64,000 bases of DNA, taken from NCBI GenBank assembly GCA_918797485.1, contig CAKKNE010000003.1, forward strand, positions 62,001 through 126,000, read 5' to 3'. The number at the start of each line of letters is the position of its first letter. The stretch's first letter is position 1. The notes beneath the pieces are model-generated. The model had not been told where the DNA came from. It did not search any database and saw only the letters and a program-made list of their open reading frames with translations. The position numbers and the translations under genes were made by a program. Positions 8,575-63,247 of this stretch are shown here, one piece after another. The DNA comes from Pelagomonas calceolata (lineage: Eukaryota; Sar; Pelagophyceae; Pelagomonadales; Pelagomonadaceae).

Positions 8575-9208
8575 GACCGCGCACCGCTTGGAGCGATGCG
8601 CCCGCGAACGTCAAATGCCAGCGCACTGCTTACACCAGCTCAGAGTGATCTCAGTGATAGGAGGCTAAGCGATGCTGGCGCCGCACGCACGAGCGCACAG
8701 ATACGAGAGACCAGCGATGCGACGGTCGTTTGGCCGCCGCTTGTCACGAATGTGGCCGTGCTGGTGCGTTTGCCAAGCCAGACCAGGCTGCCCGCTTCGA
8801 AAGCGACATCATGGGGGAACTCGTCCGATGCGACGCATACGATCGCTTTAAGAGGCAGTTGGCGCCTTTATGGAGTTTTCCTTTTTTTGCTAGTGTCTTT
8901 ACGTACCGCTAGCGCGACTGCCTTGCCTTGCCCTTGCCGTCGGAGCCTTGCAGGACTACCGACGCATCGCTGCACCAAGACAACGACGCGGATTTGCAAA
9001 AATTTCAGCGCTAGCCGAAATTTTAGCTGCTGCACATAACAACGCGGACGCACCGCGCCCACCACCCATCAATACGACGGAGAGCAACCGCGCGTCCCCG
9101 CGGCGCGACGCCACCGCCACCGCCAGCAACAACTCGAAGGCGACGTATCAGTCGCAGGACTCGCAGGACAGCGAGCCGGACACGCCTCTGCTCCCCGGCT
9201 GCAGTGTC
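8575..9208. other. Intergenic, upstream of divergent photolyase and transporter genes
   Basis: An open frame in phase with the transporter runs back to a TTG at 8948 but has no ATG before 9209, so it is more likely leader. A copy of the recurring GCTAG...CTAGC motif lies at 8889-8913, about 315 bp upstream of the photolyase start. Confidence 0.55.
8889..8913 (-). repeat. GCTAG...CTAGC intergenic motif, copy 1
   Basis: Reads GCTAGTGTCTTTACG then TACCGCTAGC: the reverse form with one extra T in the core. It lies 296 bp before the ATG of the SLC35-type transporter. Confidence 0.75.
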
Positions 9209-10204
9209 ATGGCGCCGCCCCCGAAGCCGGACGGCGCGGCGAGCCCCGCGAAGCTCGCCATCGGCGTCGTGGGGATCTTCGGCGCGTTCCTCTACTACGG
9301 CCAGCTCATGGGCGACATTGTGAAATATCAAGCCGAGGACGGCTCGAAGTTGGAGCGCGAGTGGTTCCTGCAGGTGCTCGAGGCCGCCGCCAACGTTTTA
9401 GTAGGTCTGGCGGGACTCATCCTCACGCAGGGCGGGCCCTCGCCGGCAATCCCCTACAAGTCGTTTTTGTTGACCGGCAGCACGCAAGTCCTGGCCAAGG
9501 CCATGACGCAGAAGGCCCAGATCTATGGGGTGCCCTTCTTTTTAGCAACATTAGTGAAAAACGCAAAGATGGTCCCCGTCATGGTCGGCGCCATCGTCCT
9601 GAGCGGCACGCGGTACCCCGCGCGCAAGTGGGCCCAGGTCGCGCTGATTATCGGAGGCGTCGTCCTCGTGACCGTCGGCAAAGCTAGGAAGCCGGGTTCG
9701 GACGGAGGCCACGCCGATGTTATTGGAATGGCCTGCCTCGGGTTATCGTTAGTGTGTGACGGCATCACGGGCGGCCAGCAGACGGCCTTCAAGAAGGAGT
9801 ACAAGAAGACGCAGGGCCAGGGCCTCGCGCCGTACGACCTCATGCTCTTCACGAACGCAGCCATGTTGGGTGTGGCCCTGGTCATGGCGTTAGCGTTGGA
9901 CCAGTTCTTCGGGGGCGTCGCCTTCCTCTTAGATCATCCGGACCTATTAACGGCCGTGGCCAAGTTCTCGTTCTGCTCGGCGATCGGCCAGTCGGCCATC
10001 TTCTTCACGATGGCGAACTTCGACCCGCTCCTCGTGACGACGGTGACGACGACGCGCAAGATCTTCTCCGTGCTTTTAGATATTGTGTCGCGGGGCTACG
10101 TGCTGAACGGGACGCAGTGGTCGGGCGTCGCGGCGGCGTCGCTCGGCGTGCTCGGCGAGCTGCAGGAGAAGTTCGGCAAGAAGCAGCATGCCCACTCGAA
10201 GTAG
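9209..10204 (+). CDS. Nucleotide-sugar / adenine-nucleotide transporter, SLC35B (UAA) family
   Basis: 331 residues from the ATG at 9209 (the open frame upstream begins only at a TTG). Length and pattern fit SLC35B1-like carriers of the ER/Golgi: about ten hydrophobic segments, the early LAIGVVGIFGAFLYYGQLMG, the internal YKSFLLTGSTQVLAKAMTQK and AKMVPVMVGAIVLSG blocks, and the late TTVTTTRKIFSVLLDIVSRG signature of UDP-galactose/ATP-type transporters. These antiporters move nucleotide sugars or ATP into the ER/Golgi lumen, which fits the glycosyltransferase genes elsewhere in the window. Frame intact, no intron seen. Confidence 0.85.
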   Translation: MAPPPKPDGAASPAKLAIGVVGIFGAFLYYGQLMGDIVKYQAEDGSKLEREWFLQVLEAAANVLVGLAGLILTQGGPSPAIPYKSFLLTGSTQVLAKAMTQKAQIYGVPFFLATLVKNAKMVPVMVGAIVLSGTRYPARKWAQVALIIGGVVLVTVGKARKPGSDGGHADVIGMACLGLSLVCDGITGGQQTAFKKEYKKTQGQGLAPYDLMLFTNAAMLGVALVMALALDQFFGGVAFLLDHPDLLTAVAKFSFCSAIGQSAIFFTMANFDPLLVTTVTTTRKIFSVLLDIVSRGYVLNGTQWSGVAAASLGVLGELQEKFGKKQHAHSK

Positions 10205-10428
10205 ATTTGGCCTAAGTATTCTATGGGAGCCGCCGCGTCGACGGCGTCGGGGGCGCCGCAGGAGTGCGCTCGGCAGTGGAACTAGAGGCTGGAGCCTAGA
10301 AGAGCGTGGACAGACCAGAGGGCACCACTGGCACCGGCTACTAGTGCGAGTAGCACCCGGGCCGGGACCGCCGGGCGCCCAGCGAGGGCGAACACCCAGA
10401 CCGCGCCGGGAAAAAAGAAAACAGACTA

Positions 10429-11843: not shown

Positions 11844-13899
11844 ATGGCGTCGCCCGCCGCGAAGGCAGCCCTCGAGCGGCGCCTGCGCGGCGCGTCCGCC
11901 CGCGTGACGCCGCGGGACGACGACGACGACACCATCAATAATGACGCGCAAGCGACGCCGCGGCCGCCGCCGTTCAGCCCCGACGAGGTGCCGACGCAGG
12001 GCAAGGAGATTCCCAGGGGCGACGCGACGCCGCGCGACGAGGACCTGCGGGACGCGAGCCCGCGCCAGGGCCGAAGTATACCAATGGACACCTCGTCCTT
12101 CTTCATCTGCCCGCCGCGGCCGCCGTCGCTGCGCGAGAAACGGCCAATGCTGATAGAGCGTTCCTCAAGGAAGTCATGGGCGACGCTTCGACATCTCTCG
12201 CGGGCGCCGAGTACGGCCTCAAGCAGGTCAACGAGTTATTTAGGAAGATTCGATTGCTCAATTTGAATGACGAGGCCGCGACGGCTTTTGTCGACGCGAA
12301 TCGGCTCTTCGAGGAGATCCAGAAGGATATAGGATCCGCGAGAGGCAACTTCGGCGTGGCCGCGTCGGCCGTGTCGGCGGCGGGCGCGCGGGACACGATG
12401 ATGGTTGGAGTGGCCGAGGTCGCGTCTGAGTTCTACGAGCAGCAACTGAATCGTTTAGGGTTGGAAGACGACCTCAAGGGCTACCTGCCGCGAGGCGCGG
12501 ATCTCCTGGACACTCACCGAATGTCAGTCAAACTGCTGGAGGTGGAACTGGCCTCGTCGACGGACCGCATCGACGACGTCGTCTACGAACAGATGCAGGC
12601 CGTGGCCGATAGATATTTAGCAATGGGCTCGGCGCGCATCTACCACAACGACGCCGCGCGCCAGGCGACGTGCGCCGCGGCCGACTGCTACAGGATGTGC
12701 TGCGACTATGCGGCGAGTGCCGTGGCGGCATCAACAGCCGCGCGGGCCGCGTTCATCAAGGACACGGCGGCGTCGGCCACGGACTTTGCGAAGGCTGCGA
12801 ACGCGGCGTCGGACGCCTCGAAGCAGATGATGGAGGCCGCGCGGTACCGGGCTGTGTGGAATCAAATTTTACGGCGCGTTCGTGCTGAATCGTCGCGTCG
12901 TCCTCCACGCCATCGACGCGACGCCTGCTCGATGGCGTGGCAATGTCGGTTCCTCACCGCTCGACGGAGCCAGCGCGGCCACGTCATCGCCGAGAAATGA
13001 CTTAGTGAGGAATTATCGGGTGCACCCGACACACTGGTTGATTTCCACACAGGTACCGCGAGAAGCGGGCCCTGCGCCAGGCGAAGGAATTACGGGAGAA
13101 CGGCGAGCGCCTCCAGAAGGAAGTGGAAAGACTCCAGCCGGACGCGCGCTTGGTCGCGGACGGCGCGCGCGCGACGCCCGCCACCTCGCTCCCGCGGTCG
13201 CCGCGCACGGATCAACAAACCATGTGCGAGATCCGGACTGCTTTAAATGACCTCGGCAAGGCCGACGACCCCTTCGAGCGCTCGGGCGCGCTGGAAGCGC
13301 TGGCGGCGACGTTACGACGCGAGGCGCCCGCGTCCGTCGTCATGGGCGCCGGCACGGCGGAGCTCGTCGCGACGGGCGGCGCGCGCAAGGTCGCCCAGGA
13401 GATCGCCGACGCGCCCCTGGACGAGGCCGACGCGCGATTGGAGCGGCTCCAGTCCATCGCGCGGCCGCATCGGATAAAGGAGCCCCTGTCGCCGCGGCGG
13501 CGCCACTTGTTGGAGCGGAACGACCTGCCGGTCCGGGGCACGCTCCTCGAACCCCCGCCGGTTGCGACGCGAGATTTATTGGAGGACCTCGGTCTGAAGA
13601 GCGACGCTATTAGAACCGTGCGCGACTCGGCGGAGCTGTCGCCGCGGCGGAGCAAAACGCGGCGGCGGCCGCCGGCGGACTGGGAACTGAAGGCGTCGAC
13701 CCGCTCGGACGGCGACTTCGGGGCCACCCTGGCCGAGGCGCTGGCCAACGCGGCGGTCGATCCCGTCCTCCGGGCGAGTGATTCTATCCGGGCGAGTGAT
13801 TCTAAGCTGAAGGCGTCGTCACGCTCGGGCGGCGACTTCGGGGCCACCCTGGCCGCAGCGCTGGCCACGGAGAGAGTTGATACTCCACCGGGGGAGTGA
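11844..13899 (+). CDS. Unrecognised helical protein with C-terminal 40-residue repeats
   Basis: About 620 residues after removing one introner. An N-terminal disordered stretch (TPRDDDDDTINND...) is followed by a long alanine-rich helical region (residues about 100-380; VKLLEVELASSTDRIDD, AARAAFIKDTAASATDFAKA, REKRALRQAKELRENGERL) that reads like a coiled coil. The C-terminus has two 40-residue repeats beginning LKAS(T/S)RS(D/G)GDFGATLA. A one-base slip near 12135 separates the disordered start from the helical part. The alternative is that the gene begins at the in-frame ATG 12176. I do not recognise the family; a scaffold or membrane-curvature role would be a guess. Confidence 0.6.
12856..13052 (-). 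mobile_element. Introner-type intron with 8-bp target duplication
   Basis: Longest copy, 197 bp. Terminal repeats CTGTGTGGAATCAA (from 12852) and TTGATTTCCACACAG (to 13052) flank two opposed cores, CCACGCCATCGACGCG and GCTCGATGGCGTGG. The CACTGG next to the right end shows the element is reversed relative to the gene. Flanks GTACCGGG (12844-12851) and GTACCGCG (13053-13060) match at 7 of 8 positions, a target-site duplication. Splicing at the second GT joins ARYRAV to YREKRA in frame. Confidence 0.9.
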
Positions 13900-13906: not shown

Positions 13907-13946
13907 CTTCGGGTTGTTTGTACATATGTTTATGCCGCGAACGCTT

Positions 13947-14369: not shown

Positions 14370-15322
14370 CCTGCGCTTCGTACCTGCGAGGCGTCCGGTC
14401 GACGCGCGTCAGCACTTGGGGAAGTGCGCGGCGTGGTCGGCGACCGTCGCGCGGCGATGAGGTGTCTCGCGGGGTAACCATCGCGGCCGCGCGTCGCCGG
14501 GGCCGCTCGCGCCGCTCGAGAAACAATGCTGGCTTTGATAGAGTTTTGCTCACCTGGTTAAACCGCGGCGTCGCGGCGTCGCACACGCTCGCACGCTTCG
14601 TTTTATAGAGACCAGAGCGCGTCACGGCGGTAAATGCACGGCCGCGCGGCGGCTTATTCGAGTGGTGCCCAGCGGCCTCGGCGGCGCTCGAGCCGCCCAC
14701 GGCGAAGCACGAAGCAAAGCCTATCAACACATCCTCCTTACTCACGGAGGAATCGGCTTCGGCACCAGAGCCGCCAAGCTTCGGCGTGTCGTCCGGCTGA
14801 TACCCAGCGGGCTCGTATCTCAAACTAGCGCCGTTGACGCAGTGGCGTTCGTCGGTCGGGGTCAGGAAGCCCCGTTCTTGCCACGTGACCGAGGTGTCCG
14901 TCGCATTTCGCGCAGACGATCTCTACGCGCATCCCGTCGGCATCGGGCACCTCGCGGATCGCTCCGGGTATGCCGTCGTAAAAAGCCGGCCAGCCGCAAC
15001 CACTGTTGAATTTCGTGCGAGCAAAGTACAAGGGCTCCCGACAGCCCGCGCACTCGTACACGCCGCCGGCGTCCGGGTATTTCGCACCGTAATCACGCTT
15101 GAGGTCGTGCTCAAGCTCGCCCTCGGTACCTTCAGAGTAACCGGGCGGCTCCGTCGCCTTCTGGCGCAGCACCGCGAATTGATTCGGCGAGAGCTCCGTC
15201 ATCCAGCCGGCATCATCTTTGGGCAGGCTGGCCAAGGCGCGACCGCAGCGGCGGCGTATTACGGGTGTGAGGCTGGCGCCGCGGCGAAGCGCGAGCAGAA
15301 GCGCCATGGACCACTTTGGCAT
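14290..15322 (-). CDS. msrB: Peptide-methionine (R)-S-oxide reductase
   Basis: Reduces methionine-R-sulfoxide in proteins. The MsrB domain is clear: WMTELSPNQFAVLRQKATEP, two zinc pairs CAGC and CAKC, FNSGCGWPAFYD, GHLGHV and the catalytic-cysteine block RHCVNGASLRYEPAG. A one-base slip just after GHLGHV (about 14890) separates the last block. The first ATG (15322) gives MPKWSMALLLALRRGASL, a possible organelle or secretory leader; a GTG at 15364 lies upstream. After the domain the frame stays open to 14290, overlapping the PH gene. That tail has no recognisable domain and may be untranslated or intronic. Confidence 0.8.
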
Positions 15323-15721
15323 CTTCGAGCAGCGTAAATGAGTGCTTTGATGACGACGTATCACACCTTGGGCCCAAGTTAAGAGAGCGGGCTCTCACAA
15401 GCTCTTGGAGCCACGTACGCTCGCAGGGCTCGCGGAGACGACTACTGGGGTCGTGAAAATGGCCTAATCTCTGCAAATTAAGCAGCGCTGAGCCTGAAAA
15501 GCTAGCAAGCTGGCGTGATCGAGCTAGCGGCATGTAAGACACTAGCAAGCACACGATTTCCCAGCACAGGCCAGCACGCGCAATCTCGCGCTGCCCGGCC
15601 ACATTTGCTGCTAGACACTCACACTACATGGTCCATACGAGCGGTAGGCAGCGGAAGGAGCAGCCGTAACAACACACAGGGGGCCCACTCAGATTCGGGC
15701 TGCCCCACACGAGCAGATAGG
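15323..15721. other. Intergenic, upstream of divergent MsrB and glycosyltransferase genes
   Basis: Contains an exact copy of the recurring motif at 15523-15546. The glycosyltransferase frame is open upstream to a GTG at 15515, but the secretory leader begins at the ATG 15722. Confidence 0.55.
15523..15546 (+). repeat. GCTAG...CTAGC intergenic motif, copy 2 (consensus)
   Basis: Reads GCTAGCGGCATG then TAAGACACTAGC, taken here as the consensus because two copies match it exactly. It lies 176 bp before the glycosyltransferase ATG. Confidence 0.85.
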
Positions 15722-17315
15722 ATGACACCCTTACGGCTCCTGCCGCTGCTGGGCACCGTAGCATGCCTAGACTACGCCGCGGACTTGGCAAGCTACCGCG
15801 AGAAATGCAAATCAAAACCGAACACGGCCTTCTGCTGGATGGACGATCCTGGTAACGTCGACGGGTCGTGCCGCTTCGCCGCGCGCGCCGGCCTGGTTTC
15901 GATGGGAGCGAGCAGCGTGGGCCCGCGCCTCGACCTGCGCTTCGACAATGGGAAAGCGTGGACGGCGGTGCCCCACGCGCTGACTGGTTCTAAAGCGCAC
16001 GCCTTCTCCAGCAAACCGCGGCTGTGTGCCCTGGCGACCGAACAGACGGACCCGTCGCCCTCTCTCTTGTTAATTGCGAACAACGTCGACTACGTGTTTA
16101 GACTGTGGCCCTACTTCATTAATAAAGTAATGTGGGCGTCTTCGACAAGACACCGCCTTTCAATCTGGATCGGCGAGCTGCCCAAGATCGTCGCCGCCAA
16201 GAGCGGCGACGGCTGTAGAGCCTCAAAGCAGAAGCAATCGCTATATAGTAGGCGACTCAAGCAGAGCTACTACGGGTCGCCGCGGCAGAAGTCCAGCAAC
16301 CACCACGCGAAGATGCTCGCGGCCTACCGGTTGCTCGCCGATCCTTATGTTACGGGCCTGTACTACGTGGACATGGACGCCTACGTGAGGCCCGATGCCC
16401 TCTTCTCCTCCGTGCCTTCGTTGTTTCGCAAGGTGCACTATGACGACGTGGTCGACGTGCTCTTCGAGAACGCGCGGGACCAGAGCCTCTTCTGGCACCT
16501 GCACGGCGACACGTTTTATCTAAGGGACGTGGCTTTGTCTCGGATCTTCCTCAAGGCGCGCGGGCGGCGTCCGATTTCTTTTCACGCCATCGCCTCTCGC
16601 GTCGATGGCGTCGAGCGTCGAAGCGTGAGTACGCAAACGTGGGGGCGCCGATGCGCGGAGAGTCTACGCCATCGAGCAAAATGAAGAGCGTCTCAAAACA
16701 CAGGAGTGGCTCGAGCGGCGGTGCGGCTTCAAGGACCAGTACTCGCTCTGGCACGCCGTGCTGGGCATGGCGGGCGCCGCGGGTTGCATGGAATACGACG
16801 GCGAGATCTACCGCAACTTCACGTACCAGGAGGCGCTGCACATCGACAAGAACGAGTGGAAGGCGCTGAAGATGACCTGCGGCGGGCGCCAGAAGCGCTG
16901 CCCCGAGTTCCGCTTCTGCCGGGACAAGTACGACCTCGCGCGCCAGCACTTCGTGCACTCGAACATCGACGCGGGCGCCACGCGGCGCTTCCGTTATGAT
17001 GTGGGCGGCGGCTGGCGCGCCGACGTCGTCGTGGCCGACCTTAGTGGAGGCCCCGAGGGCGACGACGACGCCGTCGACAAGTCGGATTTGCTGGGAATGC
17101 TCGGGCTCCTGCACGTCGGCGCCGACAGGGTCCTCGGGCAGCTACCTCCACTTGAAGAAACGCCGCCGTCGTCCGGCGTTTCGGTCGGGTGGCTCCTCTT
17201 CCTCCTGCCCGGCGTCCTGGCCGCGGCGTGGCGGTGTCGGTGTCGTCAGGAACCGGAGGACGAGGCGTTCTCGGCCTACGGCACGCGACGACCAGCATTG
17301 CGGAAATTCATATAA
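15722..17315 (+). CDS. Secretory-pathway glycosyltransferase-like membrane protein
   Basis: 472 residues if the introner at 16529-16703 is removed; the exon total is then an exact multiple of three. Starts with a short signal peptide (TPLRLLPLLGTVACLDYAAD). The catalytic part has LLLIANNVDYVFRLWPYFIN, NHHAKMLAAYRLLADPY and the metal/sugar-binding DxD in LYYVDMDAYV, as in nucleotide-sugar transferases that copy sugar onto secreted glycans. After the intron: EWLERRCGFKDQYSLWHAVL. A C-terminal membrane helix (VGWLLFLLPGVLAAAW) is followed by a cysteine-rich cytosolic tail. The exact GT family is not certain; the layout is vaguely like GT34. Confidence 0.7.
16529..16703 (+). mobile_element. Introner-type intron in glycosyltransferase gene
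   Basis: GTGGCTTTG to AAACACAG, 175 bp, phase 0. Inside are CACGCCATCG, GCGTCGATGGCGT and a further CTACGCCATCGAGC core. The donor is the best fit by frame; the reading frame stays open into the element to 16684, so a later donor cannot be ruled out. Confidence 0.65.
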
Positions 17316-17351: not shown

Positions 17352-17606
17352 TCACGCGTCCTTCTGGTGCATCCATCCGCCCTTGAAGCGCATGAAGAAC
17401 GCCGCGCCGCCGATGAGCGCCAAGATGAAGAGCTGCCGCGTCCGCTCGGTCGCGGGCTCGTACGGCTCCAGGGAGTCGGGCAGCTTGCCCCGCAGGCCCT
17501 CGGGCACGAGGTCCCGTCGGCAGACCAGCACGGTCACGGTCACGAGGCTCGCGCAGTAGACGACCGTGCGCATCATTTCTGCTACTACACCGGCGGGTTG
17601 CGGCAT
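17352..17606 (-). CDS. Small two-helix membrane protein
   Basis: 84 residues from the ATG at 17606; the next in-frame methionines (MMRTVV) start ten residues later. Two membrane helices are visible, VVYCASLVTVTVLVC and TRQLFILALIGGAAFFM, joined by a charged loop with PEGLRGKLPDSLEPYEP. The end is KGGWMHQKDA. Not recognised; size and layout resemble small organelle-membrane or respiratory accessory proteins, but nothing specific supports that. It converges on the glycosyltransferase gene with 36 bp between stops. Confidence 0.55.
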   Translation of the reverse strand: MPQPAGVVAEMMRTVVYCASLVTVTVLVCRRDLVPEGLRGKLPDSLEPYEPATERTRQLFILALIGGAAFFMRFKGGWMHQKDA

Positions 17607-18059
17607 CGTTGCTAGGCTGCTGCTGTGCTGCTACGTGCGCTTGCTGCAAAGCTATGCCTCTCCGACAGCGCTGTTGTAGAGCGCCACAAGCCCGCTCAGA
17701 GCGCAGCGTTCGATGCACGCCGATGATTTTCGTTGCTATTATGTTAAATCGTACTCCACACAGCCTAACTATTCGTGTGCGAGGCACACTGCGAGATGCG
17801 TCGACCTGCAAGCTGCTTCTAGTGTCTTACAGGCCGCTAGCCCAGAAATATAATCCAACAAGCCTCCGTCGCTGAGACGCGCCGCGCGTAATTACCACGC
17901 GTGAGCCTCCTCAAAGACTCGCGGACAGAGCCACTTCGCGATCTCGCTCCGTGACGCGCCATATCTCAATTCTAGAGCAGTTCCTAAAGTTTCTCAATCC
18001 TAAGCGGATACCGCGCGTCGCGGCGTCATCGTGACCGCTAAGTACAATTTCTAAAAAAA
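17607..18059. other. Intergenic, upstream of divergent small membrane protein and C2 gene
   Basis: AT-richer than its surroundings. It holds a copy of the recurring motif at 17818-17841 and an A-run directly before the C2 start codon. Confidence 0.55.
17818..17841 (-). repeat. GCTAG...CTAGC intergenic motif, copy 3
   Basis: Reverse form TCTAGTGTCTTACAG then GCCGCTAGC; the first base differs from consensus. It lies about 210-220 bp from the start codons on each side. Confidence 0.78.
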
Positions 18060-27647: not shown

Positions 27648-28013
27648 GCGTCTTCCACACCCCGCGCGGGTGCGTTAGTTTGTCCCTCTGAATGGCGTTG
27701 TGTTGCGGTGCTAGGGCTAGTGGCCCGGAGGCGGGCGCCGCGCGTCGCCGTCGTTGGCTTCGCGTCGTCCGCGCGGCGACGGCGCTTTTCGAGGCGTTCC
27801 CGGCGACCTCTTGGATCGTTGGCGGTCGAATCCGAGATCGATGCACGGTTACGCTAGCGTACATACATACTAGGGACAATGCGACCGCGTCGCGCCCAAA
27901 CTCCGCTCTCCGGGGGGCCTGACCCGCTATGGAGTTCAATGGCGCTGCTCCACCGGCTTATACTGATGCCGCACCGATAAGTACGATCGGGCACGCCTTA
28001 CAGAACGCGAGCA
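27648..28013. other. Intergenic before the PHD-finger gene
   Basis: Holds a degenerate copy of the recurring motif at 27853-27874 and short open frames without visible domains. Confidence 0.45.
27853..27874 (+). repeat. GCTAG...CTAGC motif, divergent copy
   Basis: Reads GCTAGCGTACATACA then TACTAGG. The ends match the copies at 51605 and 53407, but the TAAGA core is lost. It lies 140 bp before the PHD gene ATG. Weak evidence on its own. Confidence 0.45.
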
Positions 28014-31234: not shown

Positions 31235-31256
31235 GCTAGCCGATAAAGACACTAGA
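31235..31256 (+). repeat. GCTAG...CTAGC intergenic motif, shortened copy
   Basis: Reads GCTAGCCGATAAAGACAC then TAGA: ends and TAAAGACA core are kept, two or so bases shorter than consensus. It lies 190 bp before the ATG at 31447. Confidence 0.6.
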
Positions 31257-34308: not shown

Positions 34309-34610
34309 TGCCAGATGCTCTGTACGCACACTCTGCAACCACACAGATGGAATTAGCTTACGCGGCGGTCCGGCGCAGTAGTGCAGGACACTTTACACTC
34401 AAGGGGATTCCAGTGCAGCGCTATGCGTCCACCACGGCAGCGCGGCGCCGCGCGATGCGTGCTAGCGGCATGTAAGACACTAGCGAGGCATCACTGCACG
34501 CACTTCTCAAACAAACAGGCTTCTTACAGTACCAGCATAGCACCAGTATTCTGTGTGTGCTTCGATCGGACACCCCGCGATCGGGGTGCCGAAAAGGAGC
34601 AGGAAGAGCA
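34309..34610. other. Intergenic between two minus-strand genes
   Basis: Holds an exact copy of the recurring motif at 34461-34484, 153 bp upstream of the 34308 start codon. No gene is seen. Confidence 0.55.
34461..34484 (+). repeat. GCTAG...CTAGC intergenic motif, copy 4 (exact consensus)
   Basis: Identical to the copy at 15523-15546 over all 24 bases. It lies upstream of the minus-strand gene ending at 34308, so it is reversed relative to that gene. Confidence 0.85.
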
Positions 34611-40781: not shown

Positions 40782-41211
40782 CGACTGCATTGCCGGCGAC
40801 GCTTCACTTTCCCGGAACTCCTCCGCTTTCTACTTCCATATTCCTTTAAACGACCTTACCTCTTGATAAAATACTCATGTGTCCCGAGGGGCCTTCACGA
40901 TGCCGTTAGGATGAGTCGGGGAGGGGTGGGGCGACTCTGTGCGGGTTCGTGTCTTATCCGCTCTGGAGGGGGTACCGCCCCGGGCCGCGGCTTCCAGGGC
41001 TCCAACGCTTCGGAAACCCTGTGCGCAGCTAGCGGCCAGTAAGATACTAGCGAGCACGCTCCGACGCGCGCTGTGTGCGCTGCGGGCCGCTGTAGCCACG
41101 CGTGGGCAGCCCTATGTGCGCGTCGACGTTCCTTCCGATGCGCTCGGCAGCCCCGTCGAGGCTATGACCACTACACAACACCTGTCCTGATATGCTGATG
41201 CAGGCCAGCTG
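40782..41211. other. Intergenic before the DUF285 gene
   Basis: No gene seen. It contains the recurring motif at 41028-41051. Confidence 0.5.
41028..41051 (+). repeat. GCTAG...CTAGC intergenic motif, copy 5
   Basis: Reads GCTAGCGGCCAG then TAAGATACTAGC: three bases off consensus. It lies 161 bp before the ATG at 41212. Confidence 0.8.
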
Positions 41212-42967: not shown

Positions 42968-43000
42968 GCTCACTACACCGTCATAAATAACACAAAAAAC

Positions 43001-44537
43001 TTACACAAACGTCTCCCGGTCGTACGCCGCCCGCTCCCGCGCGTCCGAGAGCACGTCGTAGGCCGCCTGCAGCTCGCGGAAGCGGTCCTCGGCGTCGGGC
43101 GCCTTGCTCTTGTCCGGGTGCATGCGCAGCGCCCGCGCGCGGTACGCGCGCTTGAGCATTGATGGAGACGCGTCGCGCGGCGCGCCGACGACGTCGTAAA
43201 GCGTCGGGCCCACGACCTTGGGCTTCGGAGGCGGCGGCGGCGCTTGTTGCGCGGGCGCGGGCCGCGTAGGCGCGCGCCGCGGCCGCGTCGGCCTCGGGGT
43301 CCGCGGTGTCGCAAAAGGCGAGGCGCTTCCGGCACGCCGCCTGCTCCGCGGCCGCGTCCGGGCACCGCGCGTACTCGTCCAGCGCCGCCTCGAGGTAGGC
43401 CTTGGCGTTCGCCCCGCGGTCGCCGTCGGCGGCGGCCCCGCGCGCGAGGCAGCGCGCCCGCCGCAAACGCGCCGCGGCGTAGTCCGGCCGGCAGCGCAGG
43501 GCGCTCGCGCAGCAGCGCGCCGCGTCGAGCGGGCGGCCGAGCTTCTCGAGGCACGCGGCCGCATTGTAGTGCAGCGCCGGGTGCTCCGGGTCCTCGTCGA
43601 GCGCCGCGGCGTACCAGCGCTCCGCGGCCCGGGCGTCGCCCGCGCGGAAGGCGGCGTCGCCCTTGTCCTTGAGCTCGGCGACGGAGCCGAACCGCCGCGC
43701 CTGGCTCGCGCACCAATCCCGCGACCGGGCGAACCGCGCCGCCCACGCCGACGCGACGCGGGCCGCTCGCGCGGCGTCGCCGCCGTAGCAGAGCGCCTTC
43801 AGGAGATCCAGGGCGTCGCGGCGGTCGATCGTGTTCGGAACGGCTCCCTTCGGCGCGTCCACCTCGTCCCCACCGAGCGCCGTGGCCGCCTCGGGCCAGC
43901 GCTTCAGGCGACACAGCGCGGCGGCCTCGAGTTTTTTAATTTCGGCCGACTCGGGCGCGGTCTGCTTCGCGACGCGCGCGGCGGCGAGGGCCCGCTCGAG
44001 CCGCCGCGTGACTTCTGCGCCATCGTCGGTGCCGTCCGCGCGCAGGAGCTCGCGCCGCGCCGTTGCGACGTCCGCCGCACACGCGGTCGTCGCGTCAAGA
44101 CCTTCACTCGCGACCGTCGCCGCGTCTCCAGCCGCTCCGGACGCATCACCCAACGCCGCGGCGCCGCCTTCGAGCACGCGGCGGAACGCGCGGTCGGCCT
44201 CGTCGAAGGCGCCGCGCCGCAGCAGACTCGCAGCGCGGGCGTTCGTGGCCGCGTCGTCGTCGCGCCGCTTGGCCGGGTCGTCGTCGTCGGCGTCACGCCG
44301 CTCGCCGACGCGCAGCGTGCTGCCGTAGAGCTCGACGGCCGCCTCCCACGGCCAGTCCTCGGGAATGGGCGTACCGTCGTTGGACGCGAGGTACAGCTCG
44401 CCGCTGCATTGCTTCCGTTTGGACCACGCTTTGATGAGTTTCGAGCACGGCGCGCCTCCCCAGCTCTCTGGTATCGTGAGCTTGAGAGGTGCTGTCCTCT
44501 CCTTAGACAGCAGTGTTTTTAAGACTACGGTCCTCAT
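43001..44537 (-). CDS. TPR and J-domain co-chaperone (DNAJC-type)
   Basis: About 510 residues from the ATG at 44537. TPR-like helices fill the middle (AELKDKGDAAFRAGDARAAE, HPALHYNAAACLEKLGRPLD, AARCCASALRCRPDYAAARL), as in DNAJC7-type proteins. A one-base slip near 43250 leads to the J domain at the C-terminus: TLYDVVGAPRDASPSMLKRA, YRARALRMHPDKS with the HPD that stimulates Hsp70 ATPase, and FRELQAAYDVLSDARERAAY. It probably hands clients to Hsp70. Its start lies 344 bp from the divergent ClpP gene, with a motif copy between. Confidence 0.82.
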
Positions 44538-44881
44538 CACTCAAAATCGCTTGCGCACTCAATTGTATGATACCTGAGCCCACGAATGCTGCCGCATGAG
44601 GCCTGAGACTCGCAGTGGCGGCTGCGAATTGCCGCATTAACATGTCCACTGCAGCTGGCTGGTGAGCGTCGTGGCGACTTGTTCGCTCAGCGGACGACTC
44701 TTCTGGAACCGCCAGAGAAGCAAACGGACGCCTCTTTGCTTGCTAGTGTCTTACAGGCCGCTAGCTAACTCGACTTGCCGTCTCCGCGAGTGCTGCGTAC
44801 GCGCCGCATTTGTCAATATCCTGACAGCGAGCGAGGCTTGACACAACGTTGTTTCTGGCCTAAACCTGCTGGACCAGCGAA
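44538..44881. other. Intergenic, upstream of divergent J-protein and ClpP genes
   Basis: Holds the recurring motif at 44742-44765; no gene seen. Confidence 0.55.
44742..44765 (-). repeat. GCTAG...CTAGC intergenic motif, copy 6
   Basis: Reverse form GCTAGTGTCTTACAG then GCCGCTAGC. It lies 117 bp before the ClpP ATG and about 205 bp before the J-protein ATG. Confidence 0.85.
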
Positions 44882-51515: not shown

Positions 51516-51813
51516 GCTTTTGCAAGTACGCCAGGTTATAATTATGAGTCCCGCGTCGCCGGTCTACAAATTTTAGACCCGCGCGACAAAGTTAGGAATC
51601 GCGAGCTAGCGTCATGTAAGATACTAGGGATGCCTAGCACGCGCGGCGGGGCTTTTTTGGAGGCTGCTGCAAGCTAAGGGCTCGTCCACGCACGGCCAGG
51701 AATCACTCTAGCTCTCGCGACAACGCCTGCGCGCCAACGCGCCCCACCGCTGTGCCGCTTGGCTAGTAGTCCATCCGACTCGCTGCGCCGCCGCGCCGCA
51801 GCGCTACCAAAAA
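51516..51813. other. Intergenic, upstream of divergent Kelch and EMC2 genes
   Basis: Holds a motif copy at 51605-51628; otherwise nothing recognisable. Confidence 0.5.
51605..51628 (+). repeat. GCTAG...CTAGC intergenic motif, copy 7
   Basis: Reads GCTAGCGTCATG then TAAGATACTAGG; three bases off consensus. It lies 90 bp upstream of the Kelch ATG and 186 bp before the EMC2 ATG. Confidence 0.8.
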
Positions 51814-53187: not shown

Positions 53188-53619
53188 GCCCCGGTACGAC
53201 GAATTTTATCTGGCCCGTCGCGTGACATCCAAACACAGCCTCGGCCTTTTTTTTAAAACTGGATCTCCTTAGCGCTCGTCTTGGCGCAAATATCTCTCGC
53301 CGCGCGCACTTGTGTGAGTCAGTGGGCGTGTTACGATTAACCCTCGACCACTGATTCGTATTGATGGGCGCCTGTGGACTCGTTTGATCCAGCAGTAAAT
53401 AAATGCGCTAGCGGCATGTAAGACACTAGGGAGCCGAGAGCGCCGCATTGAGCTGGTCTAATTTGCGAGCAAGCATCGCGGCGGGAGCTCCGGCCACCCC
53501 TTAGAAATTCTCTTCTCGGTGCCCACACAAAGCTGCGAAGCTTGTGCGCGCTCAGATAGCTTAGCAGCCGACCTGCTCTCACAGAGCACCTGCTCGCTTC
53601 CCTCCGCCGCTAGACAACC
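53188..53619. other. Intergenic before NFS1
   Basis: Contains the recurring motif at 53407-53430 and, near 53309, TGTGTGAGTCAGTG, which also occurs at the end of the SCC3 introner. Confidence 0.5.
53407..53430 (+). repeat. GCTAG...CTAGC intergenic motif, copy 8
   Basis: Consensus over 23 of 24 bases (last base G). It lies 190 bp before the NFS1 ATG. Confidence 0.84.
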
Positions 53620-55428: not shown

Positions 55429-57478
55429 ATGGGGAAAGGTGAACGCACGCTCTCTGCGACAAAGATGGACCAGAGCCGCATCCGCGCGGAGAAGGAGAAC
55501 GTAGAATACGTGGAGACATTAGGCGTCCACTGGCGCAATCTCAGCGTGCATTTCAAGGACGTACAGGCATTAGCGCCGTGCTCGGGCGACGTCGAGGCGG
55601 GCCAGGCCGTCGCGCTGATGGGGCCCACGGGCTGCGGCAAGACGTCGCTCTTAAACGCATTAGCTCGGAGGGGCCCGGTCGGCGGTGGCCAGGTTTGGTA
55701 CGGCGACGACCTGGCCTGGTCCTCCGCGTTGAAGCGCCACGTCGCCTTCGTCGAGCAGGACGACCTCGTCTTCGAAGGACTGACCGTTAGAGAAACGTTA
55801 GCGTTCTCCGCGCGCCTGCGACTTCCGGCGGCCTCATTGAAGGAAAAACTGGAGAGAGTCGACGAGACGCTCAAGCTGCTCCGCTTGGAATCGTGCGCCG
55901 AGACGCCGGTCGGCGGCATGGGCGGCAAGACGATCTCCGGTGGAGAGCGCAAGCGGCTCATGGTCGGGCAGGAAATGCTGACGAGACCTAGACTCCTGTG
56001 CTGCGACGAGCCGACGAGCGGCCTCGACAGCGCCACGGCGTGCGTCGTCGTCGAGGCGCTGCGCGACCTCGCGCGGGAGCGGCGCGTCGCCGTCGTGGCG
56101 TCGATTCACCAGCCGTCGTCGCGCCTCTTTCTCCTCTTCGACGAGTTACTATTGCTGCGAAAGGGCGGTCTTACCTACAGAGGCTCGACGGCGGGACGCT
56201 GGCGGCGCCAGCGGGCGCGCCGTTCCACCTGCCGTGCCCTGCGGCTTACAGTGCGCCGGACTGGCTCATGGAGATTGTGGTCGAGAACAAGGTCGATAGT
56301 GATGATGAGAAGAAGCGGGTCCTCGACGAGCGCCACGGCCCCTCAACGCCGCCGCGGACGGAGCCCTTGCGATCGCTGCGGGCCCAGAAGCGGCGCCAGC
56401 GCTACGCCGCGCCGCTCACGGAGCAGATCGCCGTCCTCAGCCGTCGGTCGTGGAAGGCCGTGGCGCCCAAGGTCTTCAAGCGCTCGTCATTATTGCTGCA
56501 CGGCGGCAACGCGACGCTCGCCGGCCTGATGTGGTGGCAGCTCGGCTACAAAGAAAAGGACGTCTTCCCGCGCTACACACTGGCGTTCGCGATACCCATC
56601 GCCTGGATCTTCTTCCCGCTGCTGGACGCGCTGCCCTGGTTCGGCGCCGCTCAAAACATGCTCCGCAAGGACCTGGCGTGCAACGCCTACAGATTAGAAG
56701 CGTGGTTCGTCGTCGACTCGACGATGAATTTGGTGCCCATGTGTGCTCAAAGTTTGATGCATTTGACGGTCGAGAGCTGTGTGGATATCAACCAGTGAGT
56801 TAGGTTGCCGCCATCGAGCAGACGCGGCTACGGAGAAAATATCGCGTCGATGGCGTGGGGCGCCCGAAATTTGATTTCCACACAGATCTTCTATGTGCTC
56901 GCGGGCGTGTCGAGCAACCCGGCGGTCTGGTTCGCGTTGTACGCCGTGCTAGTGGCGTCGTTCCTCACGTTCCAGTCGATCGGCCTCATGTTCTCCGCTG
57001 GAGTAAGTGGAGAGAACGTCGTGACGGTGGCGATGATCTACGTGACCTACGTCTTCCTCTTCACTGGTTTATTTGTGCCCGTCTCGCAGACGGCCGTGCC
57101 GTGGGCCGTCTCGCCAATCTTGATCTACATCCTCAAGCTCTCGGCGGACGCCATTTTTGGGATTGACCGCAAAAATTCAAGTGCGGCAATCCCGACGACG
57201 GCACGCTCTTCCCCGATTCGTGCGGCGCCCGGCGGCGACGGCAAAATCTCGGTGAACGACCCGCGAGGAGTACCACCGACCGACGCTTCACGACGGGCCA
57301 GGCCATCGTCGCGCTGTTCGTCATGTTCGTCGTCGCGCGGTCCGTCGCCTACTTGCTGCTCCGGCGGCGCATGAAGCAGAAGGAGCGAACTGATGATTGC
57401 GTATCAGGACGCTACGCCGACCGCGGAGGCGAGTCCAGGAGGACGTCGCCGTCGCGGGCGAGCCTGGTCGATGTTTCA
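55429..57478 (+). CDS. ABCG (white-brown) half-transporter
   Basis: ABC nucleotide-binding domain first, membrane domain second, as in ABCG half-transporters that export lipids or small hydrophobic compounds. Walker A GPTGCGKTSLLNAL, Q-loop VEQDDLVFEGLTVRETL, signature ISGGERKRLMVGQEML, Walker B LLCCDEPTSGLD and H-loop SIHQPSS are intact. A slip near 56190 leads to the linker, then helices such as YTLAFAIPIAWIFFPLLDAL, NPAVWFALYAVLVASFLTFQ, VAMIYVTYVFLFTGLFVPVS and a last AIVALFVMFVVARSVAYLLL. An introner at 56782-56885 splits the membrane domain, and another slip lies near 57215. An alternative start is 55240. The substrate is unknown. Confidence 0.85.
56782..56885 (+). mobile_element. Introner-type intron in ABCG gene, near full-length
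   Basis: 104 bp with terminal repeats CTGTGTGGATATCAACCAG (from 56778) and TTTGATTTCCACACAG. Inner parts GTGAGTTAGGTT and GGGCGCCCGAAATTTGA match the copy in REV3 base for base. The second GT is the donor, phase 0, joining LTVESC to IFYVLAG. No clear target duplication can be seen. Confidence 0.9.
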
Positions 57479-58133: not shown

Positions 58134-58508
58134 TCGCGTCGTGGTGGCTGTGTAATTTGATTGGTACTATTTAGTTTCTTCTGGAGGATGCCGTGTATTA
58201 CGGTGATCGATGGCTCATCTCCTTGGAACGACCGCTGGTTGGCCGCTCGCTAGTGTCTTACCTGTACAGGCCGCTAGCTAATTCCATCTTGCCGACCGCA
58301 AAACGGCAATAACGCGCGCCAGGCATCATTTGTCTGGCGCGACCCATCAGTACTCGCCATTTCTACAGCCCGCAGCGGCAGAACCTTCAGAGTACTCAGA
58401 GAACTGCTCAAAGGCTGCACTGCACAGATTGCACTCTGTGAGTTTACAGCGTACAGCATCCTGGCGCCAAGCCGTTGCATCCAGCAGCGTAAATTAGTGC
58501 ACCACTCA
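58134..58508. other. Intergenic before the small 58509 frame
   Basis: Holds an expanded copy of the recurring motif at 58249-58278; nothing else recognised. Confidence 0.5.
58249..58278 (-). repeat. GCTAG...CTAGC intergenic motif, copy 9 with 6-bp insert
   Basis: GCTAGTGTCTTAC, then a CTGTAC insertion, then AGGCCGCTAGC. The inserted bases make the centre a small palindrome (CCTGTACAGG). It lies 231 bp before the ATG at 58509. Confidence 0.78.
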
Positions 58509-58733
58509 ATGCCGTCGCCGCTACACCTCACCTTCCAAGCGCTCTTCAGCACGATCGGCGCCTACCTCGCACTGCTCTTTCGCGCGACGGCGAGGGTCCT
58601 CTTCGAGCGCGAGCCGGTCGAGTCCGAGGGCGAACCGGAGGCGCTCGACCTGGGCATCCTGCGATTGGACCAGGCCATCCACCAGGCCGACTTTGAACTG
58701 GCGCGCGCGAGGGCCGAGGCCGAGAATCGATGA
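58509..58733 (+). CDS. Possible 74-residue small protein
   Basis: Starts PSPLHLTFQALFSTIGAYLA with one possible membrane helix (FQALFSTIGAYLALLFRATA), followed by an acidic helical tail (LDLGILRLDQAIHQADFELA). Its TGA overlaps the ATG of the next gene (ATGA), so it could be a real small upstream gene, an upstream open frame, or a first exon. Supported only by its composition. Confidence 0.35.
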   Translation: MPSPLHLTFQALFSTIGAYLALLFRATARVLFEREPVESEGEPEALDLGILRLDQAIHQADFELARARAEAENR

Positions 58734-60244: not shown

Positions 60245-60253
60245 ATTTGTTGT

Positions 60254-61138: not shown

Positions 61139-61487
61139 CGCGGCTGGGAGAGCGGTGCGGAAGTCAAAAGATCAATTGTTTTGGCGCACTTGGGCAGCCT
61201 CGGTCTGCGCAGGTTGTGTGGCAGCCCCAGGATGGCTTGCCGCTTGCTAGTGTCTTACATACGCTAGCTCGTCTGTCTGCGAGAAACTGCCGCAGCGGCA
61301 CCGCTGCGCAACAAAGGGGACCGAAAGACGCTTCTATTGTGCATTTCGCTCGGGCGATTCAGCCCTTTTGTTCGGAAACCTCGAGGTTGAGCGACACCAG
61401 CAGACCTGCTCTGCTGGTGCCAGCTGTGCCACCCCAGGGACGCATTCGTGCCCGCCTTGGCACCAGAGCTCGTTAGTCTCCTCAGAA
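61139..61487. other. Intergenic, upstream of divergent GST and dioxygenase genes
   Basis: Holds a motif copy at 61246-61268. The dioxygenase frame is open to a TTG at 61368, but the first ATG is 61488. Confidence 0.5.
61246..61268 (-). repeat. GCTAG...CTAGC intergenic motif, copy 10
   Basis: GCTAGTGTCTTACATACGC then TAGC; one base shorter than consensus. It lies 108 bp from the GST ATG and 220 bp from the dioxygenase ATG. Confidence 0.82.
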
Positions 61488-62201
61488 ATGGCGCTGCGCG
61501 CAGCCCAAGCACGAGCACGCAAGGCATTGGTCGACCGGGCTGCCGCGCAGAGGCTGCCGGTCATACGAGTGCCGAAATTCCTCGACGACAGCGCGCTCAA
61601 CGCCATCGATGCGCTAGGCAGTGCGCATGCACTCGTGCACGGCCCACCGGTCGCGGCGCGGACGGCGTGGCGGACGCAGTATCTCAACGCCGACGGCCTC
61701 GCGAGAACGCAAGCTGGCGAGCTGCTCGATCGCCTGGTCACATTGGCGAAAGACGTCGACGACGAGCATTTTTCGGGAAATGCCAGAGAATGTGAAACCC
61801 GGTGCGTCGAACTGCACGACTGCGGCGAAGGAGCGGGGCTGGACGATCCGACGCACTTCGACTCCGGAAGTGTCGTCACGCTGGACGTGTGCCTGCGCGA
61901 GGCCGATGCGGGTGGCCGGTTTCAGACTTTGGAAGAGGACGGCTCAACGCTCGAACATGTCTTCGAACGCGGCGACGCGTTAATATTCCCGTCGTACAAG
62001 TACCACGGCGTGTCTCGCGTGGAGAGCGGCCGCCGGCGCGTCCTCGTACTGGAGCTCTGGAACGGCGAGGAGCGCTTTTGCAACCACCGCTGCACGGTGG
62101 CGCGCGGAAATTGTGAATTGCTCCAGGTCGGCGTCGCGGAGCGCGAGCTGAGTAGTCAGGAAGCTGCCTGGGGGCGGCTACCGGCGCGGCGCGCGCAATA
62201 A
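61488..62201 (+). CDS. 2-oxoglutarate/Fe(II) dioxygenase (prolyl-hydroxylase type)
   Basis: 237 residues from the ATG at 61488. LPVIRVPKFLDDSALNAIDA starts the domain. The iron pair is in DPTHFDSGSVVTLDVCLRE, followed by GGRFQTLEE, LIFPSYKYHGVSRVESGRRR with the distal histidine and the co-substrate arginine, and VLVLELWNGEE. Such enzymes hydroxylate amino acids or small molecules. It is the second dioxygenase gene within 4 kb, separated from the double-domain one by the GST gene. Its 3' end overlaps the convergent GOS1 gene by about 46 bp. Confidence 0.8.
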   Translation: MALRAAQARARKALVDRAAAQRLPVIRVPKFLDDSALNAIDALGSAHALVHGPPVAARTAWRTQYLNADGLARTQAGELLDRLVTLAKDVDDEHFSGNARECETRCVELHDCGEGAGLDDPTHFDSGSVVTLDVCLREADAGGRFQTLEEDGSTLEHVFERGDALIFPSYKYHGVSRVESGRRRVLVLELWNGEERFCNHRCTVARGNCELLQVGVAERELSSQEAAWGRLPARRAQ

Positions 62202-62848
62202 CGCGCGCGCCACCATCGGCGAGCACGGCCCAGAGCAAAAACGACGCGCAGCACCCGACCGTCACGCCGACGACGGCGTTCTCCCGGTACTTCTTCTGGC
62301 GCATTTTCTGGATGATCGAGTCGATCGACGGGAGCCGGTCCGTCAGCGACTGCGCCGTGTTTGTAGAGCCCTCGAGGGTCTCGCGCTGCGACGCCAGGTC
62401 CGACTGCGCCTCGTGGGCCTGCTCGATGACGTCGCCCACTCCTCGCAGCGCGTTCGTCGTCGCCTTCCGCTCGCGGTGCACGCCCTTGAGGTGGTCCGGC
62501 CCGCCCTCCAAGTCGACGACGTCGTCCGCGCCCGAAGAGCTTCGCCCGGTCCGCGTTCTTGCGCAGTTGTTTAGCGACGCGGCCGACGTCGGACGAATAA
62601 TCAACAACAACGGCGCGACACCGCTCGACGACGGCCTTGCGCGCCCGGCGACGGCTCGCGCCTCCTCGGCCTGCAGCGAGTCGCGACGCGCCGCCAGCGC
62701 CTTGAGGTGGTCCTCCACCGTCTTCAGGAGCCGCTGCGCCTCGGCGCCGCTGTCGCCGTCGGCCGCGAGCGACGCTAATTGAGGAGGGCGCGTTCCACGC
62801 CGCTTCGATCTTCCTCGCTTGCGCTCGCAGCTGCTCCCAGGACTCCAT
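62156..62848 (-). CDS. GOS1: Golgi SNARE GOS1/GS28-like (GOSR1)
   Basis: Qb-SNARE of the early Golgi. It begins SWEQLRAQARKIEAAWN, the signature GOS28 start. The body appears in two alternating frames: AEAQRLLKTVEDHLKALAAR, then VVERCRAVVVDYSSDVGRVA and KQLRKNADRAKLFG, then DHLKGVHRERKATTNALRGV, EAQSDLASQRETLEGSTNTA, SLTDRLPSIDSIIQKMRQKK and the anchor AVVGVTVGCCASFLLWAVL. At least three one-base slips separate the pieces. The stop at 62156 assumes that the first frame is regained after the anchor. Vesicle fusion between ER and Golgi or within the Golgi is the known role. Confidence 0.78.
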   Translation of the reverse strand: MESWEQLRAQARKIEAAWNAPSSISVARGRRRQRRRGAAAPEDGGGPPQGAGGASRLAAGRGGASRRRARKAVVERCRAVVVDYSSDVGRVAKQLRKNADRAKLFGRGRRRRLGGRAGPPQGRAPRAEGDDERAARSGRRHRAGPRGAVGPGVAARDPRGLYKHGAVADGPAPVDRLDHPENAPEEVPGERRRRRDGRVLRVVFALGRARRWWRARYCARRAGSRPQAAS

Positions 62849-63247
62849 CTTGTCGAACCGCTCCGCGTCGGCTGGCGTCGGGTTGGCTCCACGTCAGTGG
62901 CGTCAGGTCGCTCCGCGTCGGCGGCGTCCGAGGAGTTTTTGCAGCAGTGGCGTGTCGGTCTATACAGCTGCCGACAGCCGGCAGAGTGCAGCAAGCGCAA
63001 GCCGCTGAGGTTGGGTCTCGGTAGAACGCTTGCGCGTGCCGGAGCCTATGTAGACTGTCCCGTAGCTCTAGAAACTGCCGCCGCGACGCATCTAGCGTCC
63101 TGTAAGACACTAGCCTGGCTCCTTGTCCGGGCGCTAGCGCGGCACGAAAGGCCTACCGCTGGACCGCACCGTTATTTTTGACGTGCCACGAGCTGCGACG
63201 AAACAAATCCGCATCGATTTCACTCACAGACAGTCAGAAAAATCAGC
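62849..63247. other. Intergenic, upstream of divergent GOS1 and ATG12
   Basis: A motif copy lies at 63091-63114. A short direct repeat, GTCGGCGTC/GTCAGGTCGCTCCGCGTCGG, is seen near 62865-62925. No gene. Confidence 0.5.
63091..63114 (+). repeat. GCTAG...CTAGC intergenic motif, copy 11
   Basis: TCTAGCGTCCTG then TAAGACACTAGC; three bases off consensus. It lies 134 bp before ATG12 and 243 bp from the GOS1 ATG. Confidence 0.8.

Follow-up and report, generated by a model that had tools for sequence, protein, structure and literature searches.

A short bipartite element, consisting of the arm aGCTAGCG, a spacer of mostly 3–5 bp and the arm TAAGACACTAGCAAg, is concentrated in promoters of Pelagomonas calceolata and depleted from coding and convergent DNA, and it is probably the promoter site of an abundant nuclear protein, or protein pair, of the general regulatory factor type. 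A scan of the Pelagomonas calceolata RCC100 assembly revealed ~2,250 copies with exact arms, about one per 14 kb, while reversed-pattern controls gave 0. A 23-bp form of the element, allowing up to three mismatches, gave 1065+1143 matches genome-wide (control 0+0) and the exact right arm alone was found 2,503 times, compared to 7 in the control. The element is sparse in C1:2,587,724-2,927,324, chosen as the largest gap on chromosome 1, with one right arm on the + strand against 13.0 expected; this stretch may be the centromeric region of low GC content described in PMC9481584. Viral contigs were also considered as carriers but rejected, holding only two matches, not above estimated chance, and having a GC content (43% and 51%) that is not alga-like.

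In the window, i.e. the whole stretch of 64 kb that was analysed, eight places match a 22-bp consensus when up to three mismatches are allowed, seven of them exactly and the one at 41028 with a single mismatch, and no match was found in 100 dinucleotide shuffles of the window. All 13 places listed in an earlier sequence-only reading of the window hold the motif described there, and none of the 12 copies with at most two arm mismatches is located inside a called gene. The copy at 8889..8913 (- strand, spacer 6) lies between a photolyase-like ORF (start 8574, -) and a UAA transporter ORF (start 9209, +), and the copy at 15523..15546 (+, spacer 5, exact arms) is situated 176 bp ahead of an ORF at 15722 (+), with an ORF start at 15322 (-), present in the ORF list only and not from the gene caller, ~200 bp away on its other side. 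The latter copy is identical across 24 bp to the one at 34461..34484 (+), as had been noted from the sequence, which is found 152 bp from a start at 34308 (-), with the 3' end of ORF 34611-36491 lying 127 bp away. Between these are an exact-arm copy with spacer 5 at 17819..17841 (-), flanked by an ORF starting at 17606 (-) and a C2-domain ORF starting at 18118 (+), a weak copy under the scan threshold at 27853..27875 (+), ~138 bp ahead of a PHD-finger ORF at 28014, and a copy with spacer 3 and one mismatch in each arm at 31235..31255 (+), 219 bp ahead of an ankyrin/Tudor ORF at 31475. Further downstream, the copy at 41028..41051 (+, spacer 5) precedes a DUF285 ORF at 41212 by 161 bp, the copy at 44743..44765 (-, spacer 5, exact arms) separates a TPR ORF (start 44537, -) from a ClpP ORF (start 44882, +) and the copy at 51605..51627 (+, spacer 5) a Kelch ORF (start 51515, -) from an EMC2 ORF (start 51814, +), the ClpP and EMC2 ORFs being taken from the ORF list and Pfam and not from the gene caller. 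The remaining copies are located at 53407..53429 (+, spacer 5, exact arms), 190 bp ahead of an NFS1-like aminotransferase V ORF at 53620, at 58250..58278 (-), upstream of the ORFs at 58509 and 58730 (PhyH) and belonging to the long-spacer class GCCTGTACAGG with spacer 11, at 61247..61268 (-, spacer 4, exact arms), between a GST ORF (start 61138, -) and a 2OG-oxygenase ORF (start 61488, +), and at 63091..63113 (+, spacer 5), 134 bp ahead of an ATG12 ORF at 63248. When the Pfam labels of 50 window ORFs were compared by eye no common pathway was seen among the flanking genes, in agreement with the earlier reading.

The position relative to genes was analysed for 51 good copies in 356 kb of P. calceolata DNA, where called coding DNA makes up ~67% of the sample. 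The claim that the motif occurs only between genes holds for 49 of them, the other two being inside called ORFs that may be wrong calls. Divergent regions contain 27 copies, as expected from the claim that the motif often lies between divergent genes, while 21 are found in tandem regions, one in a convergent region and two in coding DNA. Counting copies against the distance to start codons, as had been proposed, gave a sharp peak (KS p 2e-8 for the distribution): the nearest called start is 100–250 bp away from the centre of 36 of the 49 non-coding copies, where 10.8 would be expected, and closer than 60 bp in no case, against an expectation of 5.4. Start codons are found within 450 bp on both sides of 20 of the 51 copies, and three copies have no called start inside 600 bp. 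For starts within 600 bp, those facing the GCTAG side (n = 34) have a median distance of 199 bp and those facing the ACTAG side (n = 36) one of 196.5 bp, and the one-sided cases show 16 copies in the same orientation as the gene and 12 in the opposite; in position and orientation, as distinct from activity, the element is neutral and placed so that it could serve divergent genes. Copies seldom share a promoter, since the 27 divergent copies are spread over 26 regions and the 21 tandem copies over 21, and among 130 copies there is one neighbouring pair within 1 kb against 9.0 expected at random (P 0.001). The element is not universal, because a good copy is present in only 26 out of 64 called divergent regions.

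When analysing the 51-copy sample and the exact-arm scans, the arms were found to be near-invariant while the spacer varies in both length (1, 3, 4, 5, 6 and occasionally 11–15 bp) and sequence. The single 24-bp word first described was thus replaced by two fixed arms with a variable spacer, the right arm running on into CAAG(C). The element is asymmetric, with GCTAGCG on one side and TAAGACACTAGCAAG on the other, and its GCTAGYG ends are near-inverted repeats, a pattern to be expected of a dimer site no less than of transposon ends. The arms belong together: exact right arms number 32 in the 356-kb sample and 31 of them are accompanied by a left arm (at most one mismatch) no more than 30 bp away, and genome-wide an inverted right arm comes as close as 20 bp to a left arm in only 10 cases. 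A search for partner motifs at a fixed distance gave none that was convincing apart from the element's own CAAGC extension. The core is unchanged in two related contigs, with alignments of 89% identity (347 columns) and 96% identity (257 columns), a conservation seen at only two loci, both retrieved by searching with the motif itself. The comparison with relatives covers part of the contigs L035 and L036, the stretches that align to G000, and both contigs may be chimeric.

The bipartite, asymmetric site would bind a putative abundant nuclear protein, or a pair of them, with two similar DNA-binding modules placed face to face on the inverted GCTAGYG ends around the asymmetric core. A flexible joining of these modules would tolerate the different spacers, including those of 11–15 bp. 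The bound protein would keep a nucleosome-free stretch open and activate transcription, which would start outward on any side that has a gene; this would explain both the neutral orientation and the common use by divergent pairs. The transcription starts may be situated ~110 bp outward, as suggested by a step in base composition: the A minus T skew, taken over 70 sides that face a gene, is 0.14 higher (95% 0.075–0.194) in the stretch between 110 bp and the ATG than in the first 110 bp, where the breakpoint was picked after the profile had been inspected and the skew climbs towards the ATG in motif-free genes too. No clear signal of a nucleosome-like CpG/AT periodicity was found around the element, and the lower GC content near it is not diagnostic of nucleosome depletion. 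CpG also dips at a distance of 140–160 bp from the element and GC at 60–80 bp.

Some features count against a factor site and favour a tiny mobile element of ~24–50 bp, with the GCTAGYG inverted repeats as its ends, that enters open promoter chromatin, whether or not it later took on a promoter role, or, in a variant, spreads via gene conversion between copies; taken together these two versions are unlikely. The information content of ~34 bits, compared to ~15 bits that suffice to locate 2,254 sites in the P. calceolata genome, is unusual for the site of a single factor. Identical long-spacer forms recur at unlinked places, GCCTGTACAGG (spacer 11) six times, two of these lying in duplicated DNA at C3:120250 and C6:3789245, GCCTGTACTTACAGG five times and GCCTGTACTTCAGG three times, and a right-flank subfamily, CACTAGGCATCCCT, has 43 copies at unlinked places (control 0) and is also borne by a lone right arm without left arm (L028:3982); these variants and the subfamily look like copying. 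Two copies on C5 and C6 (L042 and L043) have 44 identical bp in common with no likeness further out in the ~150 bp read, a third (L039) is 92% alike to L043 across 51 bp, and the spacer inserts may be read as TA...TA-flanked footprints or inverted core duplications. However, direct repeats of 3–8 bp are not above control around the 51 copies (15/4/1/0/0 observed for lengths 3/4/5/6/8, control means 18.9/5.7/1.6/0.5/0.06), a negative result that rules against a transposon footprint, and the similarity between flanks is at the shuffled level, the best pair having 17/25 letters and the best per shuffle 14–17 (20 shuffles). Neither was an enclosing long element seen in the sample, where short-range pairing was found for 17/17 left arms that match one of four 12-letter forms exactly and for the right arms as described above. 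Fixed arms with diverse spacers are unlike a young or decaying repeat, and one promoter seldom holds two copies. The interpretation given in the sequence-only reading is partly supported. Its promoter element withstands the refuting conditions examined, with a near absence from coding and convergent DNA and no excess of target duplications over control, and the start distance is sharply peaked, while the mobile element proposed there as an alternative is weakened but keeps some probability because of the longer dispersed subfamilies. A related and similarly improbable possibility is a self-spreading unit of 24–50 bp that came into promoters by copying and left no target duplications, perhaps via template switching or gene conversion in the repair of open promoter DNA, and was then kept because both its arms are read by a general transcription factor. 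Under this reading the information excess, the variants with recurrent inverted duplications and the subfamily of 43 copies would all be explained.

A boundary/insulator or origin-recognition element lying in promoters by chance would agree with the density of the copies, the rarity of close pairs and the sparse stretch on chromosome 1, but the tight start-codon spacing and the presence before single genes as well as divergent pairs put transcription first and make such an architectural or replication site quite improbable. A transcript of the site acting as a hairpin, which the earlier reading had raised, or as another small RNA feature is very doubtful. The ends of one strand of the 15523 copy can form a stem of seven consecutive pairs (-10.2 kcal/mol, z -2.7), but the z value was -1.5 for a second copy tried and -1.3 and -0.2 for the opposite strands, a C-A mismatch is present in the stem of one strand, and the orientation is independent of the gene. 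The outer pair is kept in 32 of the 51 copies and broken in 19 with no other standard pair and no compensation, while the inner pairs barely vary and so are uninformative on this point. The window had no Rfam match at gathering scores, and an extension of the hairpin by the flanks was rejected, their complementarity of 1.69/8 giving no signal against a control of 1.92 (sd 0.16).

According to PMC9481584, few eukaryotic species in the oceans are as abundant as P. calceolata. No description of the element, in pelagophytes or elsewhere, was found in the literature searched, a search that most subscription papers lie beyond, and the main text of PMC9481584 has no use of the word 'motif'. A promoter mark with ~2,250 copies would aid start-site annotation, transgene design and the study of transcription machinery far from animals, plants and fungi, and its information excess raises the testable question whether two factors occupy one site or the site spread through copying. 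Were the self-spreading reading true, a dispersed micro-element, among the smallest self-spreading DNA units, would underlie the promoter architecture of an entire alga.

Among known systems, introners are introns within genes, some families having inverted ends and some target duplications, and the intron length in P. calceolata peaks at ~210 bp (PMC9481584, PMC9860276). The many dispersed copies, and the inverted ends described for some introner families, are a likeness to introners and MITEs, while the Pelagomonas element differs in being ~24 bp, in its location outside called genes and in showing no target-duplication excess; a CGCCATCGA…TCGATGGCG repeat considered as introner ends found little support, with only two inverted pairs spaced by 60–400 bp in the 356-kb sample. 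Human ZNF143 has a 29-base site, with a TGGGA core and degenerate elsewhere, and 4,682 ChIP peaks, the factor stimulates initiation, and bidirectional promoters are said to be rich in motifs of its class (PMC11118474). Both sites are long, abundant and linked to bidirectional promoters, a functional likeness only, since the Pelagomonas element has no TGGGA match by eye and both its arms are near-invariant, in contrast to the degeneracy of the ZNF143 site outside its core. In yeast, the sites of Reb1, Abf1 and Rap1 are abundant and orientation-neutral, create regions free of nucleosomes and are used by divergent genes; they are shorter and less informative, and that of Abf1 is bipartite with a fixed spacer. 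By analogy the Pelagomonas element may be compared to these sites in its abundance, its neutral orientation and its apparent service to divergent genes, and to Abf1 in being bipartite, while it is longer, more informative and, unlike Abf1, variable in its spacer.

The window was searched with CTAGCGKCMTGTAAGAYACTAG, which matched at eight places, seven of them exactly and one with one mismatch, against none in 100 shuffles, and the recurring motif proposed in the sequence-only reading is thus real. It extends through the genome, where the 23-bp form with up to three mismatches was found at 2,208 places and the reversed pattern at none. The genome used comprises 32,445,274 bp in eight contigs, C1–C8, the window being bases 62001–126000 of C3, which starts with (CCCTAA)n telomere repeats, and C7 and C8 hold 90,574 and 39,373 bases; for the published P. 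calceolata RCC100 assembly the available text of PMC9481584 gives six nuclear contigs of 32.4 Mb in total, a 90 kb plastid, a 39 kb mitochondrion, 63.6% GC, TTAGGG telomeres and 16,667 genes.

When the site was split into parts and searched it resolved into two arms flanking a spacer. Exact arms occur genome-wide with a spacer of 5 bp in 1,407 cases, of 4 bp in 487, of 0–3 bp in 264 (among the 100 matches listed nearly all 3 or 1, two of 2 and none of 0) and of 6–30 bp in 96, the last consisting of 50 with spacer 6, 9 with 7, 3 with 8, 11 with 11, 2 with 13, 6 with 14, 6 with 15 and 9 longer. These counts total 2,254, with a few places counted twice since several long-spacer sites have a second left arm in tandem. 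The right arm by itself was found 2,503 times compared with 7 in the control, and therefore no more than ~90% of the exact right arms can be paired with an exact left arm nearby; right arms in inverted orientation at up to 20 bp from a left arm number only 10.

Scanning of 356 kb (256 kb of C3 together with ten 10-kb samples from C1, C2, C4, C5 and C6), allowing up to four mismatches in the 18 arm letters, yielded 86 places after merging, while three random sequences of equal neighbour frequencies gave 25, 16 and 17, of which 52 of 58 had four mismatches and 5 had three. The working set consists of the 51 copies with at most two arm mismatches, and judging from the random sequences the 22 places left out with four are no more than chance would give, and of the 13 with three the majority are probably real. 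In the working set both arms are near-invariant, the left arm has an A in front of it in 29 copies and the right arm runs on into CAAGC-like letters, outside of which no flank signal was found in the 51. Two places in L023, one of the stretches read (L023:1572 and L023:2990, three arm mismatches each and thus outside the working set), share the same unusual core and near-identical flanks 1.4 kb apart, evidently a tandem duplication that carried its putative promoter element along.

Genes were called with a codon-model ORF caller, introns and transcripts not being used, giving 234 ORFs over 67% of the DNA; many ORFs in the window are backed by Pfam, and the caller skips some starts, e.g. 15322, 44882 (ClpP) and 51814 (EMC2). 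The claim that the motif occurs only between genes holds for 49 of the 51 copies and not for the other two, which lie in called coding DNA, so that copies are far from equally frequent in this larger part of the DNA. Divergent regions hold 27 copies, tandem regions 21 and a convergent region one, bearing out the proposed location often between divergent genes, and a called start is more than 600 bp away for three of the 51. The spacing from start codons was likewise confirmed, as the nearest one is 100–250 bp away for 36 of the 49 non-genic copies (10.8 expected if they were placed at random between genes) and within 60 bp for none (5.4 expected), with median distances on the two sides of the motif of 199 bp (n = 34) and 196.5 bp (n = 36). 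Either strand is used, as suggested earlier (27 plus, 24 minus), one-sided cases being parallel to the gene in 16 and antiparallel in 12, and starts are found within 450 bp on both sides of 20 of the 51 copies. Motif copies avoid one another: the 130 exact-arm copies among the matches listed for the first 1.79 Mb of C1 include one neighbouring pair less than 1 kb apart where 9.0 are expected (P 0.001), a test which presumes that both strands, listed up to there, are fully represented. Only 26 of 64 called divergent regions carry a good copy and thus not every promoter has the motif. No common pathway is apparent by eye among the Pfam-named neighbours in the window (ClpP, NFS1-like, EMC2, ATG12, GST, Kelch, UAA transporter, photolyase and others), in agreement with the earlier impression.

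The best supported reading is that the motif is probably a promoter element and putative binding site, where an abundant protein would bind and open promoters, since this fits the motif's sharp edges, its arms paired over a short variable distance, its neutral orientation, the rare doubles and the copies shared by divergent genes. Measured on 70 gene-facing sides, the A minus T skew is 0.15 in the 20 bp adjoining the motif, -0.04 at 100–120 bp and 0.12–0.35 farther out, which may place transcription starts ~110 bp away from the motif in both directions. The skew between 110 bp and the ATG is 0.14 higher than that at 0–110 bp (95% 0.075–0.194), the breakpoint having been set after the profile had been viewed, and a skew climbing towards the ATG is seen in motif-free genes as well. 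The arms appear to be under selection, because they hardly vary while the spacer differs in letters and length and because the core is unchanged in two contigs of relatives, L035 and L036 (CAJWEZ010000013.1 and CAJWOS010000634.1), both retrieved by searching with the motif itself. L036 is 89% identical to C6 over 347 columns and L035 96% identical to C1 over 257; in L035 a 3-bp difference directly borders the core, and the other differences are mostly within ~20 bp of it. Conservation seen at two loci is only suggestive. In the RCC100 counterpart of L036 the site lies ~160 bp ahead of a frame led by ATG, and beyond it the other strand has a long frame. Both contigs are filed in bacterial bins, of a Spirochaeta and a proteobacterium, from ERR599032 and ERR599052, which we take to be Tara Oceans runs, and carry Pelagomonas-like promoter DNA along part of their length only, by either contamination or chimeric assembly.

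The chief rival to the promoter element is a promoter-seeking micro-element spread by copying, a possibility in line with the mobile element suggested earlier. Arms and adjoining letters, spacer excluded, hold ~34 bits (n = 64 copies with up to three mismatches), a figure inflated by picking good copies, though in our judgement hardly twofold, whereas ~14.8 bits are enough for locating 2,254 sites in a genome of this size. A surplus of this kind is what one expects of a site read by two proteins or of copies with common descent. Copying is suggested by identical long-spacer forms, with GCCTGTACAGG recurring six times (two copies, C3:120250 and C6:3789245, within a duplicated stretch), GCCTGTACTTACAGG five and GCCTGTACTTCAGG three times, by CACTAGGCATCCCT, common to 43 places, by 44 bp shared between stretches on different chromosomes (L042 on C5, L043 on C6) with no likeness farther out in the ~150 bp read, and by the 92% likeness of L039 and L043 over 51 bp. 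An ordinary transposon is however opposed by target duplications no higher than control, by flank likeness among the 51 no greater than in shuffles and by the lack of any bigger element found enclosing the arms. The spacer inserts can be viewed as the core duplicated in inverted form (CCTGTA/TACAGG) or, in another view of the same letters, as a few bases enclosed by two TA, and any one of template switching, gene conversion and excision footprints could have given rise to them. At window 51605–51640 the flank on the right, CTAG-GGATGC-CTAG, reads CTAG-GCATCC-CTAG on the opposite strand, which is the flank found with L039 and L043 of the CACTAGGCATCCCT subfamily; the CTAG-bounded segment looks as though it had flipped. 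Window 58190–58338, holding the 58250 copy, is 96% identical over 143 bp to C6:3,789,185–3,789,332, ~120 kb from the C6 end, and may therefore be part of the terminal duplication between C3 and C6, for which the available text of PMC9481584 states an identity above 99%.

An RNA hairpin can form on one strand, with seven consecutive pairs and -10.2 kcal/mol (z -2.7) in one copy and -10.4 (z -1.5) in the other copy tried, but the opposite strands are weaker (-6.8 each) and the outermost pair is broken without compensation in 19 of the 51 copies; no Rfam model reached its gathering score in the window. The motif may instead mark a boundary or act in replication, in view of a motif-poor 340-kb stretch, C1:2,587,724–2,927,324, picked as the largest gap, with one right arm on the plus strand against 13.0 expected, which may be one of the low-GC centromeric regions reported for each chromosome in the available text of PMC9481584.

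Another word, CGCCATCGACGCG / CGCGTCGATGGCG, is also dispersed and ranks with the most strongly over-represented ones between genes; its nine-letter core was counted 96 times in the 356 kb, and in the window the word lies at 2355–2420, 6512–6571, 7679–7718, 12902–12941, 16597–16636 and 56809–56874. Only two inverted pairs 60–400 bp apart were found in the 356 kb, and so an introner identity of this word is not supported. A tRNA-Gly(GCC) of 98 nt is predicted at window 43671–43768, within a called TPR-protein ORF (42981–44537) on the same strand, and either the tRNA or the ORF call may be wrong or incomplete.

For the motif an introner identity was rejected, introners being introns within genes according to the available text of PMC9481584 and PMC9860276 while 49 of the 51 copies are outside called genes. 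No description of it was found in the parts of the searched literature that were available. In the way of working proposed here it resembles the sites of yeast general regulatory factors. Known here from DNA alone and with no membership claimed in any protein-defined family, it may also be likened in this respect to the sites of ZNF143 in human promoters, for which the available text of PMC11118474 describes a 29-base site, 4,682 peaks and stimulated initiation.
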